Shown piece by piece: positions 5,840-15,741 of a DNA stretch of 24,945 nucleotides. The number at the start of each line of letters is the position of its first letter. Position 1 is the stretch's first letter. Source of the DNA: a virus; the IMG/VR virus record IMGVR_UViG_3300028364_000136, positions 1-24,945 of that record; one strand, 5' to 3'. The notes under the pieces are model-generated. The model made no database searches and was not told the DNA's origin. It saw only the letters and a list, made by a program, of their open reading frames with translations. The position numbers and the translations under genes were made by a program.

Positions 5840-6343
5840 ATTAAAACTGAAAAGAATGAATGCTACGATTTAATCCACGCCGATTCTGGGATTAAGCTGG
5901 AATGGCAGGATAAATACAAGCGCCTCACAGTTAGCGGTTCAGGCCGGTGCGAACTGGGCGATGTGCGCGGGAATCTGTACGTAATAGACTCTGCGGAGGT
6001 GACGGTGCGGACAGTTGTCGGCTGGGCGGCGAGCGGAAACCTGCAAGTTAGGGACTCTGCGGATGTGACGGTGCAGAGCGTCGGAAGCTATGCGTGGAGC
6101 CGGGACAACAGCACCCTTACCGCTGATACAATTAGCTTCGATGTGTGGAGCCATAACGCCAGCACCTTGACCGTGCAGAGCGTCAAAGGCAATGCGTGGA
6201 GCTGTAACGCCAGCACCTTGAACGCTAGCAGCGTCAGCGGCGATGCGGTGAGCTTTCACAACAGCACCCTGACCGCGCAGACCGTCGGCGGAGAAGTCTA
6301 TTCCAAGGGAACAATCCCGATCCAAGTCGGCGAGAATCTTTAA
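5840..6343 (+). CDS. 17-residue repeat (beta-solenoid-like) protein, no standard start codon
   Basis: The frame is a paralogue of the gene at 6364, with 60 identical bases near the 5' end. Where the paralogue has ATG AAG ACT, this copy has ATT AAA ACT (5840), and no ATG, GTG or TTG precedes the homologous region; the first in-frame alternative is GTG 5963. An AAGGAG lies at 5833-5838, one base from ATT. Either a rare ATT start, a shortened GTG product or a silenced gene is possible. The C-terminal two thirds consist of about five or six 17-residue units of the type GxxxSxxNSTLTAxxV, suggesting a right-handed beta-solenoid. Function unknown; surface or adhesin-like structures are one option. 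Confidence 0.5.
   Translation: MKTEKNECYDLIHADSGIKLEWQDKYKRLTVSGSGRCELGDVRGNLYVIDSAEVTVRTVVGWAASGNLQVRDSADVTVQSVGSYAWSRDNSTLTADTISFDVWSHNASTLTVQSVKGNAWSCNASTLNASSVSGDAVSFHNSTLTAQTVGGEVYSKGTIPIQVGENL
5846..5905 (+). repeat. 60-bp direct repeat, copy 1
   Basis: Sixty bases are identical to 6370-6429, at an offset of 524 bases. It encodes the conserved N-terminal cap of both repeat proteins and marks a recent tandem duplication. Confidence 0.85.
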
Positions 6344-6363
6344 CAACCTTAGAAAGAGCAAAG

Positions 6364-6735
6364 ATGAAGACTGAAAAGAATGAATGCTACGATTTAATCC
6401 ACGCCGATTCTGGGATTAAGCTGGAATGGGATGAGGAAAAAGAACACCTGACAGTTAGCGGCTCAGGCCGGTGCGAACTGGGCGCGGTGCGCGGGGATCT
6501 GGACGTAATAGACTCTGCGGAGGTGACGGTGCAGAGCGTCGGCGGATATGTGCAGAGCAGTGGCACCAGCAGCCTGACCGCTGGCAGCATCGGCGGCAAT
6601 GTGCGGAGCTGGGATAATAGCACCATTAACGCCGGCACCGTCGGGGGCTTTGCGACGAGCTATGACAACAGCATTATTAGAGTCGCGGCGTGTCTCAGAA
6701 GCAATATTAGCGACTGCGATAAACATGAAGCATAA
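6364..6735 (+). CDS. 17-residue repeat (beta-solenoid-like) protein, 123 aa
   Basis: Intact paralogue of the preceding gene, starting at ATG 6364. Residues 1-45 form a conserved cap (MKTEKNECYDLIHADSG onward), followed by three to four 17-residue units: RGDLDVIDSAEVTVQSV, GGYVQSSGTSSLTAGSI, GGNVRSWDNSTINAGTV, GGFATSYDNSIIRVA. The fixed period and the repeated Gly, Ser, Asn and small hydrophobic positions suggest a beta-solenoid. It is shorter than the first copy by two or three units, so unit number has changed since duplication. Its end overlaps the convergent RuvC-like gene by 29 bases, and its last residues (CLRSNISDCDKHEA) no longer follow the repeat. Function unknown. Confidence 0.65.
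   Translation: MKTEKNECYDLIHADSGIKLEWDEEKEHLTVSGSGRCELGAVRGDLDVIDSAEVTVQSVGGYVQSSGTSSLTAGSIGGNVRSWDNSTINAGTVGGFATSYDNSIIRVAACLRSNISDCDKHEA
6370..6429 (+). repeat. 60-bp direct repeat, copy 2
   Basis: Identical to 5846-5905; encodes the N-terminal cap of the second repeat protein. Confidence 0.85.
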
Positions 6736-7160: not shown

Positions 7161-8240
7161 TTAATTACGAAGTGGCATAATCATTGAGTTAAGATTTCCA
7201 GAATTAATATATACTGGTTCAATATTATCTTTGATTAATAGCGTTATTTCATCTTTGCATTGAGACAGAATATCAATGAGATAAACTGGATTTATTGATA
7301 CAGATACTTCTGGTCCTTGGTATTTACAGTCCATTGAAGTTACTACAGCACCAAAACTGACATCCTCTGAATTCAATGTCAGTTTATTATTTGAAGCAGT
7401 TATTGTAACTGACAAGTTTCTATCAGAAGTCATAATTGCGGCGCGAGACACTTGGCGCTTTAGTTGATCTGCGTTAAGACTAATAGGATCAACATCAGAT
7501 GGTTTATAGACATCCTGCCATTTAGGGTATGTTCCTTCAACCAGCTTAGACCATAAAATATCATCTGAATCGAACTCAAACATAATCATGCGTTTGCTCT
7601 TTTTAATGATTACTTCTAGTTGGTCGGTATAAGACATTAGCATCCCAACGGTTTTTTCGGGGAGTACACATGTAGATTCTGGAAACTTATGGTCTAGCTG
7701 GCAAAACGCTAAGCGCCTACCATCTGTTGCGACTGCTTTAAGGTTATCACCAAAGTCTAAAAAAGTGGCATTAAAGATATAACGTGTTGCGTCTGACGAT
7801 TGAGCATGAGACACAGAGCGCAGCGTGTTAATCAATTCTTTAACCGTTGTAGAGCCTTCAAAGTCAAAGTCATTACAAGGTATTCTAGGTACTGGCGGAA
7901 ATTCATCTGCGGAAATAATGGGCATATTGAATTTAGAACCACTGCAAGATAATGATAGGCTTAACTTATTCAGTTTAAAGTCCACAAATTTATCTTTCGG
8001 CAATGATTTGGCGATATTTAGAAGTTTATGGGCATTAACAGCTATTGAGAACTCATTCTCAACTGTGCAGTTGCAGCTAGTTATAATAGCTGTTTCTATG
8101 TTTGTTCCGCTGATCTTCAGCTTATCGCCTGAAAATTCCATGAGTACACATGTCAAAATTGGAACTTGTTGCCGTGGTGAAACAGCAATTGATGCGCGTT
8201 GTACTGTGTCAATTAAATTAACTACTGATACTATGTTCAT
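7161..8240 (-). CDS. dnaN: DNA polymerase III beta subunit (sliding clamp)
   Basis: A 359-residue homologue of the bacterial ring-shaped processivity clamp. It has the family opening (VNLIDTVQRASIAVSPRQQVPILTCV is read in residues 8-33), the middle-domain ATDGRRLAFC segment, the TYPKWQDVYKP segment and the closing IMPLRN that corresponds to the usual MPMR end. Length is close to the bacterial protein (about 366). The ATG at 8240 follows an A-rich leader. As a phage-borne clamp it would tether a polymerase to DNA; no DNA polymerase gene is in this window, so it may serve the host polymerase or one encoded elsewhere. It is followed directly by ruvC. Confidence 0.92.
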   Translation of the reverse strand: MNIVSVVNLIDTVQRASIAVSPRQQVPILTCVLMEFSGDKLKISGTNIETAIITSCNCTVENEFSIAVNAHKLLNIAKSLPKDKFVDFKLNKLSLSLSCSGSKFNMPIISADEFPPVPRIPCNDFDFEGSTTVKELINTLRSVSHAQSSDATRYIFNATFLDFGDNLKAVATDGRRLAFCQLDHKFPESTCVLPEKTVGMLMSYTDQLEVIIKKSKRMIMFEFDSDDILWSKLVEGTYPKWQDVYKPSDVDPISLNADQLKRQVSRAAIMTSDRNLSVTITASNNKLTLNSEDVSFGAVVTSMDCKYQGPEVSVSINPVYLIDILSQCKDEITLLIKDNIEPVYINSGNLNSMIMPLRN

Positions 8241-9157: not shown

Positions 9158-9334
9158 CTACTGAAGATGTTGATCAATTTTCAGATTTTGGTATGCCCAT
9201 TTGTTTTTCTTGTAGTGTCCGGTTGTTTTCCAGTATTCAGATTCTTCCCATTTATTGTCATCACGTGGACGTAGATCGTCACCCTTTCCTTGTACAGGCG
9301 GTAGTTTAGGGAATAAGTTCTTCTTGTTTTTCAT
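9158..9334 (-). CDS. Small hypothetical protein, 58 aa
   Basis: A short gene found by reading the minus strand: it begins MKNKKNLFPKLPPVQG and ends KIDQHLQ. The ATG (9334-9332) overlaps the TGA stop of the terminase gene (ATGA), the same coupling used elsewhere in this operon, which is the main support. It is rich in Lys, Asp, Trp and Tyr (DDNKWEESEYWKTTGHYKK) and has no membrane segment. Function unknown. Confidence 0.6.
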   Translation of the reverse strand: MKNKKNLFPKLPPVQGKGDDLRPRDDNKWEESEYWKTTGHYKKNKWAYQNLKIDQHLQ

Positions 9335-11247
9335 ATTGTTCTTGATGGTTTCATTAATTCTCGCACATCAAAAGGTCTATTCTTATTTCTGTCAACTGCT
9401 AAAGAGTTGTACCGAAGTGAGTCTATGCTTTCAATGGAGTTAGTTTTGAACTTGATTCCTTCGCGAACTGCTTCACCCTCCTTGTTCATAGAGGGAATAA
9501 ACCCAGATCGTGCGCGAATTATCTGTGGGATCATAATTGCCGAGTCAGCATAATCAGGTGACACGCCTCGGTTTCTCATCCTGTACTCATCCTTACTTTC
9601 TACTTTCCGCTTACCTGAAATATTCTTAGCAATGCGCCTACTTGTCATTTCATCAAAAAAGAAAGACTGCTGACAAGCGCGGGATATAAGAAGCGAACCA
9701 AATGATAACCAAGTCTGATAAGCAAACCACATTTCATCTCCAATTTTGTAGTATTTCTGCTGTGGGATTTCTGCATCTTCCTTCATGATCTTATTTTCAG
9801 AAGCCGGATGAGTCCAGTTGATTGAATATACTTCACCCCAATAGTTTTTCAGATAGGAGTAAACGCCTTCACCCATTCCTGTTGAGTCAACGGCTAAGAA
9901 CTTTGGATCTATGTTGAGCTCTTGGGCAACTTCGATTATGCGCCGAGAAAGTTTAATTGCGTCTGAATCAAACCCGCTTATTTCAATGAATCCTTCTTGT
10001 TGAAATAAGAAACGTGACTGTAAGTGCGTTCCGGTGTTTGTGGAGTAATTCTTCTCTTGATTGAATGAGTCCACCCATCCGGTTGCCATACCAAATCTGC
10101 CGTAAGCAAATATGACTTTGTCGTGTCTCAGAGCAATGTCAACTGCGCCGCATCGTGTGGAACCTTCGTGAAAAGAAGCATCTCCTACGCAGGAAAGGAT
10201 CTGCTGTTTATTTATGACGGTTGAGTATGCGCCCTTGAGCGGGAACATTCCTCGCGCAAAGCAGTAGTAGTCTGGATGCTCCGGCCCTTTGAGCAAGTGG
10301 TCCTGAAACCCTTGCCATGATAGAATGCCGGGATAGACTTCTTTTTGAGCAATAACATTTTCTGACTTTGCCCCATCCAGGCGTAGTACATTCCATCCGC
10401 GCTTTGACTTCCAATGAAAATCTTCTTCCAAATCTAAAGTCAACCATCCATCTGGCGGTTCAGATAGTTGTCCGAATACATGGGCAGCATCTTCTGGATT
10501 TCCTGATAGGATAATCTTCACTCGATCTGGGCCTTCTGCTGAAGACAATGGCGAGGCGAAGTCCTTCTCCATACCTTCAGCTACGTTTTGGAACTCATCG
10601 ACAAATATACGAAGCCTAGAGTGCCGGCCTAAAGTTGGGTGAGCCTTTTGTCGCGGTTTAGATTTGATGCCCTTCACGCGCCCCGTGGAGGCTTGTCCTT
10701 GCGGTGTGGTGATACCTTCAAAGCCTGAATCAAGGTTAGTTGGATCATCACCTAGAAACATATCCTTCTTTGCGGATCCTGACACTTCCATAACCGATGA
10801 TTCATGCATATCATAGAGGTGAGTAAATATGTTTCTCTTTAATTGAGATTCATTAACAGCCAAACATTTGACAGCGGTGTATTGAGGATCGCGCTGGTAG
10901 TCCAAATAAAGCCATATTACTATGCCGTAGGTTTTGCTTCCAGATGAACAAGCCATTACTAACGACTTGGATGATTCAGGCAAGTGTTTGAATATCTTAT
11001 CAACAAACCAAGGCATAGCGTTGAATTTCTCTAACCCCCAATTCATTACGCCAGCTTCTAGATACATATCATTATCCAGTAGTCCATGCCAGTAAGTATT
11101 TAGAAACTTCCACGCATCTTCACTGCTTTTGATAGTTATTTCGCCACCATTGTAAACTTGGATAAGTGCAGCGGCTTGAATGCGCGATGATTTAGTATCT
11201 TCGCGCAATAATGAATTCACTTGATCTAATATTTTATAAATCTCCAT
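9331..11247 (-). CDS. terL: Terminase large subunit
   Basis: A 638-residue DNA-packaging motor and nuclease. The ATPase domain has a deviant Walker A, ACSSGSKT at 99-106, a Walker B strand RIFVDE at 213-218 and a coupling motif IILSGNPED near 245-253. The RNase H-like nuclease domain shows Asp370 (CGAVDIALRHD), Asp454 (LAVDSTGMGEG) and Asp568 (SPDYADSA). Unusually it is transcribed opposite to the portal and capsid genes and lies some 5 kb from the portal, with the replication genes between. It overlaps the putative small subunit gene by 14 bases and has a GAGG upstream of its ATG. Confidence 0.9.
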   Translation of the reverse strand: MEIYKILDQVNSLLREDTKSSRIQAAALIQVYNGGEITIKSSEDAWKFLNTYWHGLLDNDMYLEAGVMNWGLEKFNAMPWFVDKIFKHLPESSKSLVMACSSGSKTYGIVIWLYLDYQRDPQYTAVKCLAVNESQLKRNIFTHLYDMHESSVMEVSGSAKKDMFLGDDPTNLDSGFEGITTPQGQASTGRVKGIKSKPRQKAHPTLGRHSRLRIFVDEFQNVAEGMEKDFASPLSSAEGPDRVKIILSGNPEDAAHVFGQLSEPPDGWLTLDLEEDFHWKSKRGWNVLRLDGAKSENVIAQKEVYPGILSWQGFQDHLLKGPEHPDYYCFARGMFPLKGAYSTVINKQQILSCVGDASFHEGSTRCGAVDIALRHDKVIFAYGRFGMATGWVDSFNQEKNYSTNTGTHLQSRFLFQQEGFIEISGFDSDAIKLSRRIIEVAQELNIDPKFLAVDSTGMGEGVYSYLKNYWGEVYSINWTHPASENKIMKEDAEIPQQKYYKIGDEMWFAYQTWLSFGSLLISRACQQSFFFDEMTSRRIAKNISGKRKVESKDEYRMRNRGVSPDYADSAIMIPQIIRARSGFIPSMNKEGEAVREGIKFKTNSIESIDSLRYNSLAVDRNKNRPFDVRELMKPSRTI

Positions 11248-13018: not shown

Positions 13019-13034
13019 ACGTTCTTTTTGGATT

Positions 13035-13132
13035 CTGTACTGCCACCTTTGGCCGATTAGACATGCACCCGCTTGTCACGGGTTTCTCTTCATCGTGTTT
13101 TTGCTTTGTTGGTCGGCAAGGTGGCAGTACAG
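13035..13132. repeat. Inverted repeat A of the divergent control region
   Basis: A perfect 15-base arm CTGTACTGCCACCTT (13035-13049) faces AAGGTGGCAGTACAG (13118-13132). Adjacent bases GCCGA and TCGGC add five pairs after a small bulge. The outer ends lie 17 and 30 bases from the start codons of the two divergent genes, so the arms are candidate operators, a two-sided promoter element or part of an origin control site. A small ACCCG/CGGGT hairpin lies between (13067-13083). Confidence 0.7.
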
Positions 13133-13165
13133 ATTTCAAAAAAATAAACACAAAAAAACACGATG
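13091..13165 (+). promoter_or_regulatory. Inverted repeat B covering the initiator start codon
   Basis: CATCGTGTTTTT (13091-13102) is the perfect complement of AAAAACACGATG (13154-13165), whose last three bases are the initiator ATG. One more A-T pair and a G-T pair extend it. In a transcript that begins before 13091 the start codon would be paired. Repeat B interlocks with repeat A in the order A1-B1-A2-B2, so the two stems would compete or form a pseudoknot. Confidence 0.6.
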
Positions 13166-14362
13166 AGAAAACAGCTGGAAAATACATGCCCTGAAGTAGA
13201 AAACATCAGGACTTTCAAGAATAGAAATAGCTTTATGGGTATTTTCGTGCCCGGCCCAGTGCTTGATTTAGAAGGCATAGGAGATGGTGAAAGAATCCTA
13301 ATGGGCCTTATCCTTTCTCTTGATGGAGAAGACGGCTGTTTTGCTTCTAATCAGTATTTTGTAAACAGGCTTCATAAGGATTGCCGATCTATTCAGAGAT
13401 ACCTTTCACGCCTGGAAGAGAAAGGTCTGATTTGCAAAACCATTGATGAGGAAAGCGGAAGGCGGAAAATACGTGCATCTTCTGCTGTGTTTGGCTCGCA
13501 TGAAATGACCAAAAAAGAACCACATAACGGCATGGTAAATTCATCGCCCACCCATGACAGATTTGTCGCGAAACCAATGACAGAATTGTCACCCACCCAT
13601 GACAGATTTGTCGCAAAACCCATGACAGATTTGCCACCCATAGATATAAGGTTAGTAGAAAGAGTAGAAGAAAGAGTAGAAGAGAGACCCCCAAACCCCC
13701 ATCCCTCCGCTTCGCTACGGGCGGGGGCTACTGCTAGTGATAAAGAATCCCAATTGGAAGAAAAGACGGATAGCGCGGCAGACCCAAAGGTAGATCCGGG
13801 CAAAGTAACTCCACAACAAAACCACTTAGCATTCTTATCTCCCAAACAACATAACACTGTTGTTGGCCGCGCCGGCGTTTTGCCTAAGCTACTGGAACGC
13901 ATACTAAGGATTAGGCTGGAGAAGCCACCATCAACTCGCAATATCAGACCAAACAGACCAAGGGCTCAAGTCACGGCATGGAACAAGATCAAGCATTTGG
14001 TTACGGAGGAAGAAGTCACGCTGATGGAAAAGTTCTACCAATCGCCTAAGAACAAAAAGACATGCGATGCTACTTGGAGGCGCAGTTTAAATCCTGACAC
14101 GATCATGAACAACTGGACTTCGCAGGTTGAAATGGCGGAAGAATACATGGAGTCACAAGTAACCGATGTACCTGGTCCGATCCAAAGGAAAATCGACTTA
14201 CCGGATGATTGGCGTCAAAGGTTATGGAAATATGCCACCAATGGGAGTTTCCCAGAAAAAGGTATTGCTCGTTTCAAGTCTATCATTGACACAGCGGATA
14301 AGGACCAGTTTCAAGCAGACATTGAAATCGTGAAAGAATTAATTACAAAGAATGAAATATGA
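13163..14362 (+). CDS. Winged-helix replication initiator with internal iterons
   Basis: A 399-residue probable phage replication initiation protein. Residues 27-105 form a winged-helix domain of the phage initiator type: GIFVPGPVLDL, then a recognition segment around NQYFVNRLHKDCRSIQRYLSRLEEKGLI (split over 63-90). A flexible linker (about 115-240) is encoded by DNA that carries the iteron array, a purine-rich tract and a GC-rich palindrome. The C-terminal domain (250-399) is helical and basic and may load the helicase. The gene lies directly upstream of dnaB with an ATGA overlap, as for lambda O/P and DnaD-like systems. Start ATG 13163 is buried in inverted repeat B. No exact family name is claimed. 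Confidence 0.7.
   Translation: MRKQLENTCPEVENIRTFKNRNSFMGIFVPGPVLDLEGIGDGERILMGLILSLDGEDGCFASNQYFVNRLHKDCRSIQRYLSRLEEKGLICKTIDEESGRRKIRASSAVFGSHEMTKKEPHNGMVNSSPTHDRFVAKPMTELSPTHDRFVAKPMTDLPPIDIRLVERVEERVEERPPNPHPSASLRAGATASDKESQLEEKTDSAADPKVDPGKVTPQQNHLAFLSPKQHNTVVGRAGVLPKLLERILRIRLEKPPSTRNIRPNRPRAQVTAWNKIKHLVTEEEVTLMEKFYQSPKNKKTCDATWRRSLNPDTIMNNWTSQVEMAEEYMESQVTDVPGPIQRKIDLPDDWRQRLWKYATNGSFPEKGIARFKSIIDTADKDQFQADIEIVKELITKNEI
13532..13641. repeat. Iteron array, putative replication origin
   Basis: Four repeats of about 22 bases with core ATGACAGA(T/A)TTG begin at 13554, 13577, 13599 and 13622; a fifth, degenerate one begins at 13532. Spacings are 22, 23, 22 and 23 bases, about two helical turns. 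The core holds GACA-N4-TGTC dyad symmetry in copies 1-3. Because the spacing is not a multiple of three, neighbouring copies are read in different frames (THDRFVAK and PMTELSP), so the conservation is at DNA level. Confidence 0.7.
13643..13690. other. Purine-rich tract next to the iterons
   Basis: Just after the iterons comes a stretch made largely of AGTAGAAAG-like units on the plus strand, almost free of pyrimidines apart from single T and C bases. A strand-asymmetric, easily opened region beside iterons is what an unwinding element would look like; this is an inference. Confidence 0.4.
13696..13727. repeat. GC-rich imperfect palindrome in the initiator linker
   Basis: CCCCC at 13696 pairs with GGGGG near 13722-13726, around a CTCCGCTTCGCTACGGG centre. 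It differs sharply in composition from its surroundings and encodes PHPSASLRAGA in frame. Short palindromes encoding SASLRAG-like peptides are reminiscent of small dispersed palindromic elements of bacterial chromosomes; that origin is inferred. Confidence 0.4.
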
Positions 14363-15741
14363 GCGATCAGGACATTTTATACGCTGAGATAACGCTTCTA
14401 GGCTCGGTGATAAATTTTCCTGAATGTTATATGCAGGTTATGGAAGAGGGGATAACGGAAGCTTCGTTTTCAGATCCACGTCATCTGTTGATCTGGCGCT
14501 TGATAACTGAGAGGGTTATGAGCAATCGTGACTTTGACTCAGTGTCTATCTCGATGGACGTAATTGGAAACTACCCGAATTTCAAGTCATCGTATGTCGG
14601 CGAGATAGCATCCACCATTGAAACTGGCAGCAGTTGCATTGAAGCAGCCAGGTGTATTGTTAGTCATCGTAACAGGTCGTCAGTCATCCATCTTTCCTCA
14701 ATGCTATGCCATGAGCTAAGAGACGGAAATATCACGGCAGATGAGTTTCTGTTTAAAATCGAGGCAATGATTGTATCTCAGCAGAAGTTAGCATCGGATG
14801 ATTCGGTGACTGAAGTTGTTCGAGATTTGCTTACGAAAAAAGAAGACAGCGTGATTTTCAAATCAGGCATTGCAACATTGGACGATAGGTTTGTTGTGGC
14901 AGCAGGAGACTTCACTTGCATAGCGGCCAGGTCTTCTATGGGGAAATCTTCATTGTACCTGAGTTACTGTGATACTGCTATTCGCGCTGATCATGGAGTC
15001 TGCATTATCAGCCTAGAAATGTCCCGATCAGACGTTATGAGACGTTGGGCGGCAATGAGAGCTGGGATTGATATTAAGAGGATTAATGACGGTATAGCCA
15101 GTGCATCGGATATATCTGCACTTAAGAAAGATATTTACCAAATTGAAAAATCAGGCGGCTCGATTTTCGTCAGGTCAAAATCAATAAACATAAGCGAACT
15201 GAGAGTTTACGTAAAAGGGATAAAGTTAAAAAACCCAAAACTTGGCATTCTTGTTGTTGATTACATTCAGCTGATGACCGAAACAACTGGATCTGGGAAC
15301 AGGGAGAGTAAAGTTGCGGAGATGTCTCGCGGCTTAAAGGGGATAGCAATGGACTTCGGCATAACTGTTATTGGATTATCGCAACTCAATGATAATAACC
15401 TCCAAGAAAATCCTTTTCCAACTCAGTCAAACATGCGGGAGTCTAAGGCCATTTATCAGGACTCTGATAATGTCTTGTTCCTTGTGCCTACGAATAAGGG
15501 AGAAGACGGCAACTATAAGGCTGGCGGCAAGATGTGGTTCAGTATATCCAAGCAGCGAGAAGGCGATGCCGGATTCCTTGTGCCTACCAATTTCAGGAAA
15601 CAGTGTACTAGATTTGAACCATACGAAGAAGGCGATGAGGACTTGTACTCAGGACCAATATCAATGTGGCAGTCTGCAAAAAAATGGCAGATCCCAAGGA
15701 ATAATATTGTTGACATATCTGCTGATGAATCCCTTTTCTGA
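14359..15741 (+). CDS. dnaB: DnaB-type replicative helicase
   Basis: A 460-residue hexameric 5'-3' replicative helicase. The N-terminal domain (about 1-140) is followed by a RecA-like motor with Walker A ARSSMGKSS at 190-198 (usual form ARPSMGKT), H1a SLEMS at 218-222, Walker B ILVVDYIQLM at 297-306, SQLN at 341-344, and MRESKAIYQDSD at 359-370, matching the family LRESGxIEQDAD. KQREGDAG follows as the KQRNGPxG arginine-finger motif. It starts at the ATGA overlapping the initiator gene, so the two are coupled. The last residues, DESLF, slightly recall a clamp-binding peptide. Confidence 0.93.
   Translation: MSDQDILYAEITLLGSVINFPECYMQVMEEGITEASFSDPRHLLIWRLITERVMSNRDFDSVSISMDVIGNYPNFKSSYVGEIASTIETGSSCIEAARCIVSHRNRSSVIHLSSMLCHELRDGNITADEFLFKIEAMIVSQQKLASDDSVTEVVRDLLTKKEDSVIFKSGIATLDDRFVVAAGDFTCIAARSSMGKSSLYLSYCDTAIRADHGVCIISLEMSRSDVMRRWAAMRAGIDIKRINDGIASASDISALKKDIYQIEKSGGSIFVRSKSINISELRVYVKGIKLKNPKLGILVVDYIQLMTETTGSGNRESKVAEMSRGLKGIAMDFGITVIGLSQLNDNNLQENPFPTQSNMRESKAIYQDSDNVLFLVPTNKGEDGNYKAGGKMWFSISKQREGDAGFLVPTNFRKQCTRFEPYEEGDEDLYSGPISMWQSAKKWQIPRNNIVDISADESLF

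Follow-up and report, generated by a model that had tools for sequence, protein, structure and literature searches.

The locus considered here raises the question of whether a short array of repeats, situated in the middle of a phage gene for a winged-helix replication protein, represents an origin of replication carried within the gene of its own initiator. The array lies in a viral stretch of 24,945 bp, referred to here as the window, and an earlier note on this DNA had read it as a lambda-like origin. That reading is well supported by comparison with the anatomy of lambda O and with relatives of the initiator, and we infer that the array is very probably the theta-type replication origin of the phage, located inside its own initiator gene.

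The initiator gene and its repeat array

Table 1. Coordinates of the initiator gene, the repeat array, and neighboring features in the window
Feature	Position	Strand	Basis or remark
Replication initiator gene, 399 aa	13163..14362	+	HTH_36, phrog_270/phrog_2880, predicted fold
Region encoding winged-helix DNA-binding domain	13229..13474	+	Profile match to relatives
Recognition helix, residues 74-86, R75-S-I-Q-R79	13382..13420	+	Predicted model
Region encoding linker predicted to be disordered, contains the iterons	13496..13873	+	Residues 112-207 and 209-237, pLDDT <50
Proposed fifth, degenerate unit	13532..13553	+	Weak, possibly chance; 5/13 core mismatches
Iteron 1, ATGACAGATTTGTC	13554..13567	+	Read as (H)DRFV
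Iteron 2, ATGACAGAATTGTC	13577..13590	+	Read as MTELS
Iteron 3, ATGACAGATTTGTC	13599..13612	+	Read as (H)DRFV
Iteron 4, ATGACAGATTTGCC	13622..13635	+	One mismatch; read as MTDLP
Candidate DNA-unwinding element	13639..13688	+	Nearest-neighbor profile; same position in lambda O; A/T-rich in relatives
C-terminal helical domain	13877..14347	+	Helices at residues 239-395, moderate confidence
dnaB replicative helicase	14359..15741	+	DnaB_C, E = 2.7e-48; phrog_19, E = 3e-59

The initiator is composed of an N-terminal winged helix, a linker, and a C-terminal helical domain (Table 1). It matches HTH_36 (PF13730) with an E value of 1.3e-8 and 34.9 bits, above the gathering cut-off of 25, as well as phrog_270 (E = 5e-9) and phrog_2880, both designated "replication initiation protein" (E about 1e-8); by these profile matches it is a member of HTH_36/phrog_270, a widespread and previously named group of phage replication initiation proteins. 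The start of dnaB overlaps the stop codon of the initiator by 4 bp, in agreement with the earlier note, which placed dnaB just downstream of a winged-helix initiator gene. The winged helix is confidently predicted for residues about 22-110 (pLDDT about 80-96 over residues 30-100), and its top matches among PDB folds, which are weak, are the N-domains of RepA-type plasmid initiators 4pql and 4pt7 (E = 0.026-0.05, target-normalized TM-score about 0.47). The C-terminal helical domain has no family match and is a candidate partner of a helicase or primase. Searches with the initiator, DnaB, the terminase, and the array itself found no close relatives of the phage.

The array consists of four units of the form ATGACAGA(T/A)TTGTC, starting at 13554, 13577, 13599, and 13622, which differ from ATGACAGANTTGTC at 0, 0, 0, and 1 positions, respectively; no further match to ATGACAGANTTGTC in the 24,945-bp window has fewer than 3 mismatches. 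The measured spacings of 23, 22, and 23 bp agree with the 22-23 bases originally proposed. The four units are real, but their description as near-identical 22-base repeats is overstated, since adjacent units share a 14-bp core and the 8-9-bp spacers between them alternate, so that a 45-bp dimer, repeated in frame at 91% identity, provides a cleaner description. The degenerate fifth repeat suggested at 13532 matches at only 8 of 13 core positions, with more than 3 mismatches, and is too weak to be counted. The dyad GACA-N4-TGTC, attributed to copies 1-3, was confirmed: it occurs three times in the whole window, each time as one of these units, and because the motif is its own reverse complement a single search covers both strands. 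No DnaA boxes are present near the array, and there is a single TTATGCACA in the window, at 1194.

Within the initiator gene, stability is lowest over the 50 bp that begin 4 bp after iteron 4, and these constitute the candidate DNA-unwinding element of Table 1. When the same stability calculation is applied to lambda O, the least stable 50 bp begin at gene position 438, 5 bp after the annotated iteron 4. A purine-rich tract had been reported to follow the repeats, and 39 of the 49 bases in 13641-13689 are indeed purines on the top strand, a level reached by 71 of 24,897 windows of this length. The tract is notable for this purine bias; its A/T content is only 60-64%, less extreme than in most relatives. 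In 42 relatives, the 60 bp following the last repeat are 75% A/T, against 63% elsewhere in the gene, with a higher value in 39 (p = 6e-11), and their coding strand is also enriched in A. GC skew, proposed as a check around the origin, is uninformative because its change near 13-14 kb coincides with, and is confounded by, a switch of gene strand.

In the mechanism that we propose, the N-terminal winged helix would bind to the GACA-N4-TGTC dyads, which are 22-23 bp, or about two helical turns, apart. Once filled, the iterons would assemble into a nucleoprotein complex, melting the A/T- and purine-rich DNA immediately 3' of iteron 4, and the C-terminal domain, either by itself or together with a loader, would recruit the DnaB of the phage, the product of the next gene.

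DNA-level constraint on the repeats

Adjacent units in the array alternate between two reading frames, encoding (H)DRFV and MTELS. When codons were shuffled synonymously, keeping the protein sequence, none of 60 shuffles reproduced the frame-shifted 14/14 match (shuffle mean 10.95) and none of 300 reproduced the 13/13 match in the linker. The use of different frames had been taken as a sign that selection acts on the DNA; the frames are as described, but frames alone do not lead to that conclusion, since a recent duplication would give the same pattern, and it is the comparative data that carry the argument. The third frame is barred because the TGA of ATGACA would become an in-frame stop codon, and the alternation of 22- and 23-bp spacing keeps this from occurring: the steps of 23, 22, and 23 use the two frames that are allowed, and with a constant step of 22 a TGA would come into frame within three units. 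Among 20 initiators with repeats of the GACA-N4-TGTC class, 12 read the same unit in two or more frames, most spacings are 22, 23, or 24 bp, and the stop frame is used once, in a unit that reads GGACA. A single stretch of DNA would thus serve for both coding and binding, with a spacing that alternates between 22 and 23 bp or stays at 24 bp and leaves the TGA out of frame. Under this reading, iterons can be accommodated at this location because the linker, predicted to be disordered, would be flexible and tolerate almost any peptide.

A scan of viral contigs for paired ATGACA-N4-TGTC units identified 46 loci, of which 20 are located inside ORFs that match the initiator profile or begin where such an ORF ends; these ORFs account for 1.6% of the strand-bases searched. 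For a non-circular comparison, initiators were gathered by protein similarity only, from named phages and plasmids, genomes, and viral contigs; merging at 75% identity in the winged helix, with ten pattern-chosen initiators left out, gave a set of 63 (62 relatives and the window). The synonymous-codon shuffle test was applied to a 180-bp segment spanning the point where the winged helix ends, with a C-terminal segment as control. Repeats in the linker exceed the synonymous expectation in 30 of the 63 at p ≤ 0.05, where about 3 are expected, and in 15 at p ≤ 0.01 (combined p about 1e-27), whereas the C-terminal segment does so in 3 of 59 at p ≤ 0.05. Not every relative passes this test; in some, the reason is a 24-bp spacing that keeps the repeats in frame. 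Lambda O, used as a positive control, behaves in the same way, its iterons being detected at p = 0.008 and its C-terminal segment not being detected. These comparisons, which are of sequences, show a constraint at the DNA level on the mid-gene repeats across the initiator family.

The position and spacing of the repeats are retained more strictly than their sequence. In the set that was not pattern-chosen, 40 of 43 strong repeat pairs are spaced by 22-24 bp, and the initiator of the window likewise has 22-24-bp repeats immediately after its winged helix. The repeats themselves read GACAAAAATGTC in LLC-1 and Cormatin, TTAACAAAAATGTTA in c5, TATACCGAAAA in PL-1, and CACGAAAAAT in Funu2. The earlier note had suggested aligning related phages to see whether the repeats keep sequence and spacing while the encoded peptide drifts; in the relatives compared here, which are not close to this phage, position and spacing are kept, the peptides differ, and the letters of the repeat vary. 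Constant position and spacing combined with changing letters are the pattern anticipated if binding sites and protein evolve together. A helicase or helicase-loader gene downstream of the initiator, as in the window, is common although not universal in the relatives. Papers treating HTH_36 in-gene origins as a class were not found in the open literature, which omits most subscription papers.

Known origins and alternative readings

A close parallel is the lambda origin in gene O, including that of lambdoid Stx phages, with which the window shares about four dyad-bearing, mid-gene iterons in mixed frames (PMC7466680), an N-terminal DNA-binding domain in the initiator, a low-stability, purine-rich tract directly 3' of the iterons, and a helicase-related gene in the next position. 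The two systems differ in the iteron, which is GACA-N4-TGTC in the window and of the CCCTC-N4-GAGGG type in lambda, and in the gene following the initiator, which encodes a DnaB helicase in the window but the P loader in lambda. The initiator of the window has no meaningful similarity to the lambda O protein and no match to Phage_rep_O (PF04492) at E ≤ 1, a profile against which lambda O scores 5.7e-36; O-like PHROGs match it weakly (E = 0.01 and 0.045). The best-supported reading is that the array works like the lambda origin but does not belong to the lambda O system. The note had argued that the initiator is not an obvious O homologue and that the origin may thus be new; the lack of a PF04492 match agrees with the former statement, but novelty is unsupported since the initiator belongs to a large, named family in which mid-gene repeats are usual. 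The in-gene arrangement itself is already known, and the window is a further example of it rather than a new kind. Origins within replication genes have also reportedly been described in the lactococcal phage TP901-1 and the Lactobacillus phage A2.

The oriL of SPP1, in gene 38, similarly has direct repeats and an A/T-rich unwinding element within an initiator gene, and SPP1 resembles the window in encoding a DnaB-type helicase but differs in that it has a distinct loader protein, gp39, and an additional origin (PMC6316719). In the RepA_N plasmid pSK41, four Rep boxes in the center of rep are bound by the N-domain, and the origin-encoded middle of Rep is a dispensable linker (PMC5703833). The window resembles it in its mid-gene boxes, and RepA N-domains rank first, though weakly, among the fold matches of the model; the initiator has no match to the RepA_N Pfam domain at E ≤ 1, and pSK41 is a plasmid, for which the passages cited here do not mention a neighboring dnaB (PMC5703833). 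Among HTH_36/phrog_270 phages, Leuconostoc phage LLC-1, Flavonifractor phage Cormatin, and Cellulophaga phage phi39:1 share with the window a winged helix, a downstream dnaB, and 21-24-bp repeats right after the winged helix, including GACA-N4-TGTC. The window initiator is divergent from these relatives (≤38% identity in the winged helix) and longer, and its tract is less A/T-rich. No origin is marked in the annotations of these three phages.

Among the alternatives, it seems quite unlikely that the repeats are binding sites through which the initiator exerts regulation, either as an operator or roadblock limiting the expression of the initiator or DnaB, or in copy control (handcuffing). A winged-helix protein bound within its own gene could block transcription, and in one group of relatives, which includes L014 and L027, two such sites begin at the stop codon of a short winged-helix ORF; for L027, the listed ORFs show no evident helicase gene next to it. 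Nevertheless, the A/T-rich tract that immediately follows the array and the frequent presence of a downstream helicase or loader gene fit an origin, and the same layout is an origin in both lambda and SPP1 (PMC7466680, PMC6316719). More doubtful still is the possibility that the array is replicative without being the main origin of the phage, which would then lie outside the fragment. The absence of a second array of the repeat from the 24.9 kb speaks against this, although the window is a linear fragment and SPP1 has two origins, one in gene 38 and the other about 13 kb away (PMC6316719).

It is very improbable that the repeats are a feature of the protein, a 15-residue repeat (SPTHDRFVAKPMTEL), or a neutral tandem duplication without function in the DNA. 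Taken by itself, the 45-bp dimer, which is duplicated in frame with 91% identity, could be explained by a recent duplication; however, the units inside the dimer are read in different frames, and the segment that they encode is predicted to be disordered. Relatives retain the DNA unit although their peptides differ (for example, HDKNV, MTKMS, HDTHV, and YDNFV), and their linkers, as opposed to the C-terminal control, carry a signal in excess of the synonymous expectation. An origin within the initiator gene thus remains the preferred reading.

The recognition helix and other observations

The recognition helix of the window initiator reads CRSIQR, in which Arg75 and Arg79 form a basic-x3-Arg pattern. 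R-x-[IV]-x-R is present in all 14 pattern-chosen initiators, and among initiators that were not pattern-chosen the strict form R-x3-R goes with GACA-N4-TGTC repeats (p = 0.024). With the broader form [RK]-x3-R, in which Lys was added post hoc, GACA-N4-TGTC is found in 8 of 14 carriers and in 0 of 48 others (p = 9e-7). A tree for the helix-repeat relationship, built from 81 columns, has one well-supported branch, a resolution too low to demonstrate that the gains were independent. It is possible, if somewhat short of probable, that HTH_36 initiators constitute a large phage class of in-gene iteron origins in which the iteron is predictable from the recognition helix (basic-x3-Arg indicating GACA-N4-TGTC), and that this class extends to short winged-helix genes with a stop codon inside the first site. 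The correspondence between recognition helix and repeat is testable, and a simple rule for uncultured phages would be that the replication origin is to be sought immediately 3' of the region encoding the initiator's winged helix.

In seven of the relatives (L014, L020, L024, L027, L028, L031, and L034), a short winged-helix ORF ends in the first of two ATGACA-N4-TGTCAT sites spaced by 24 bp; the TGA of that site is also the stop codon of the ORF. The recognition helix in this group contains RHVAR, and the spacer CCCACC resembles the spacer of the window. In another relative, L080 (the same region as L086 and L088), three tandem winged-helix segments of the initiator family are found within about 0.8 kb.

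Upstream of the initiator gene in the window, between divergent genes, there is an inverted repeat at 13025-13142 with 25-nt arms (-55.6 kcal/mol, z = -6.4), and the start codon of the initiator falls within another inverted repeat (13090-13102 / 13154-13166). The former has no Rfam match, its exact arms are unmatched in viral contigs, and Rfam, tRNA, and intergenic hairpin searches returned nothing related. On the minus strand, a probable large terminase (9331-11247) has no tblastn match in 50,697 phage records, which indicates a divergent phage. The phage also encodes its own DnaN-like DNA polymerase sliding clamp (7161-8240, minus strand; phrog_947, E = 1e-63), and two ORFs at 5963-6735 are composed of short repeats (VTVQSV.. 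and STLTA..) that, by eye, have the look of a beta-solenoid.
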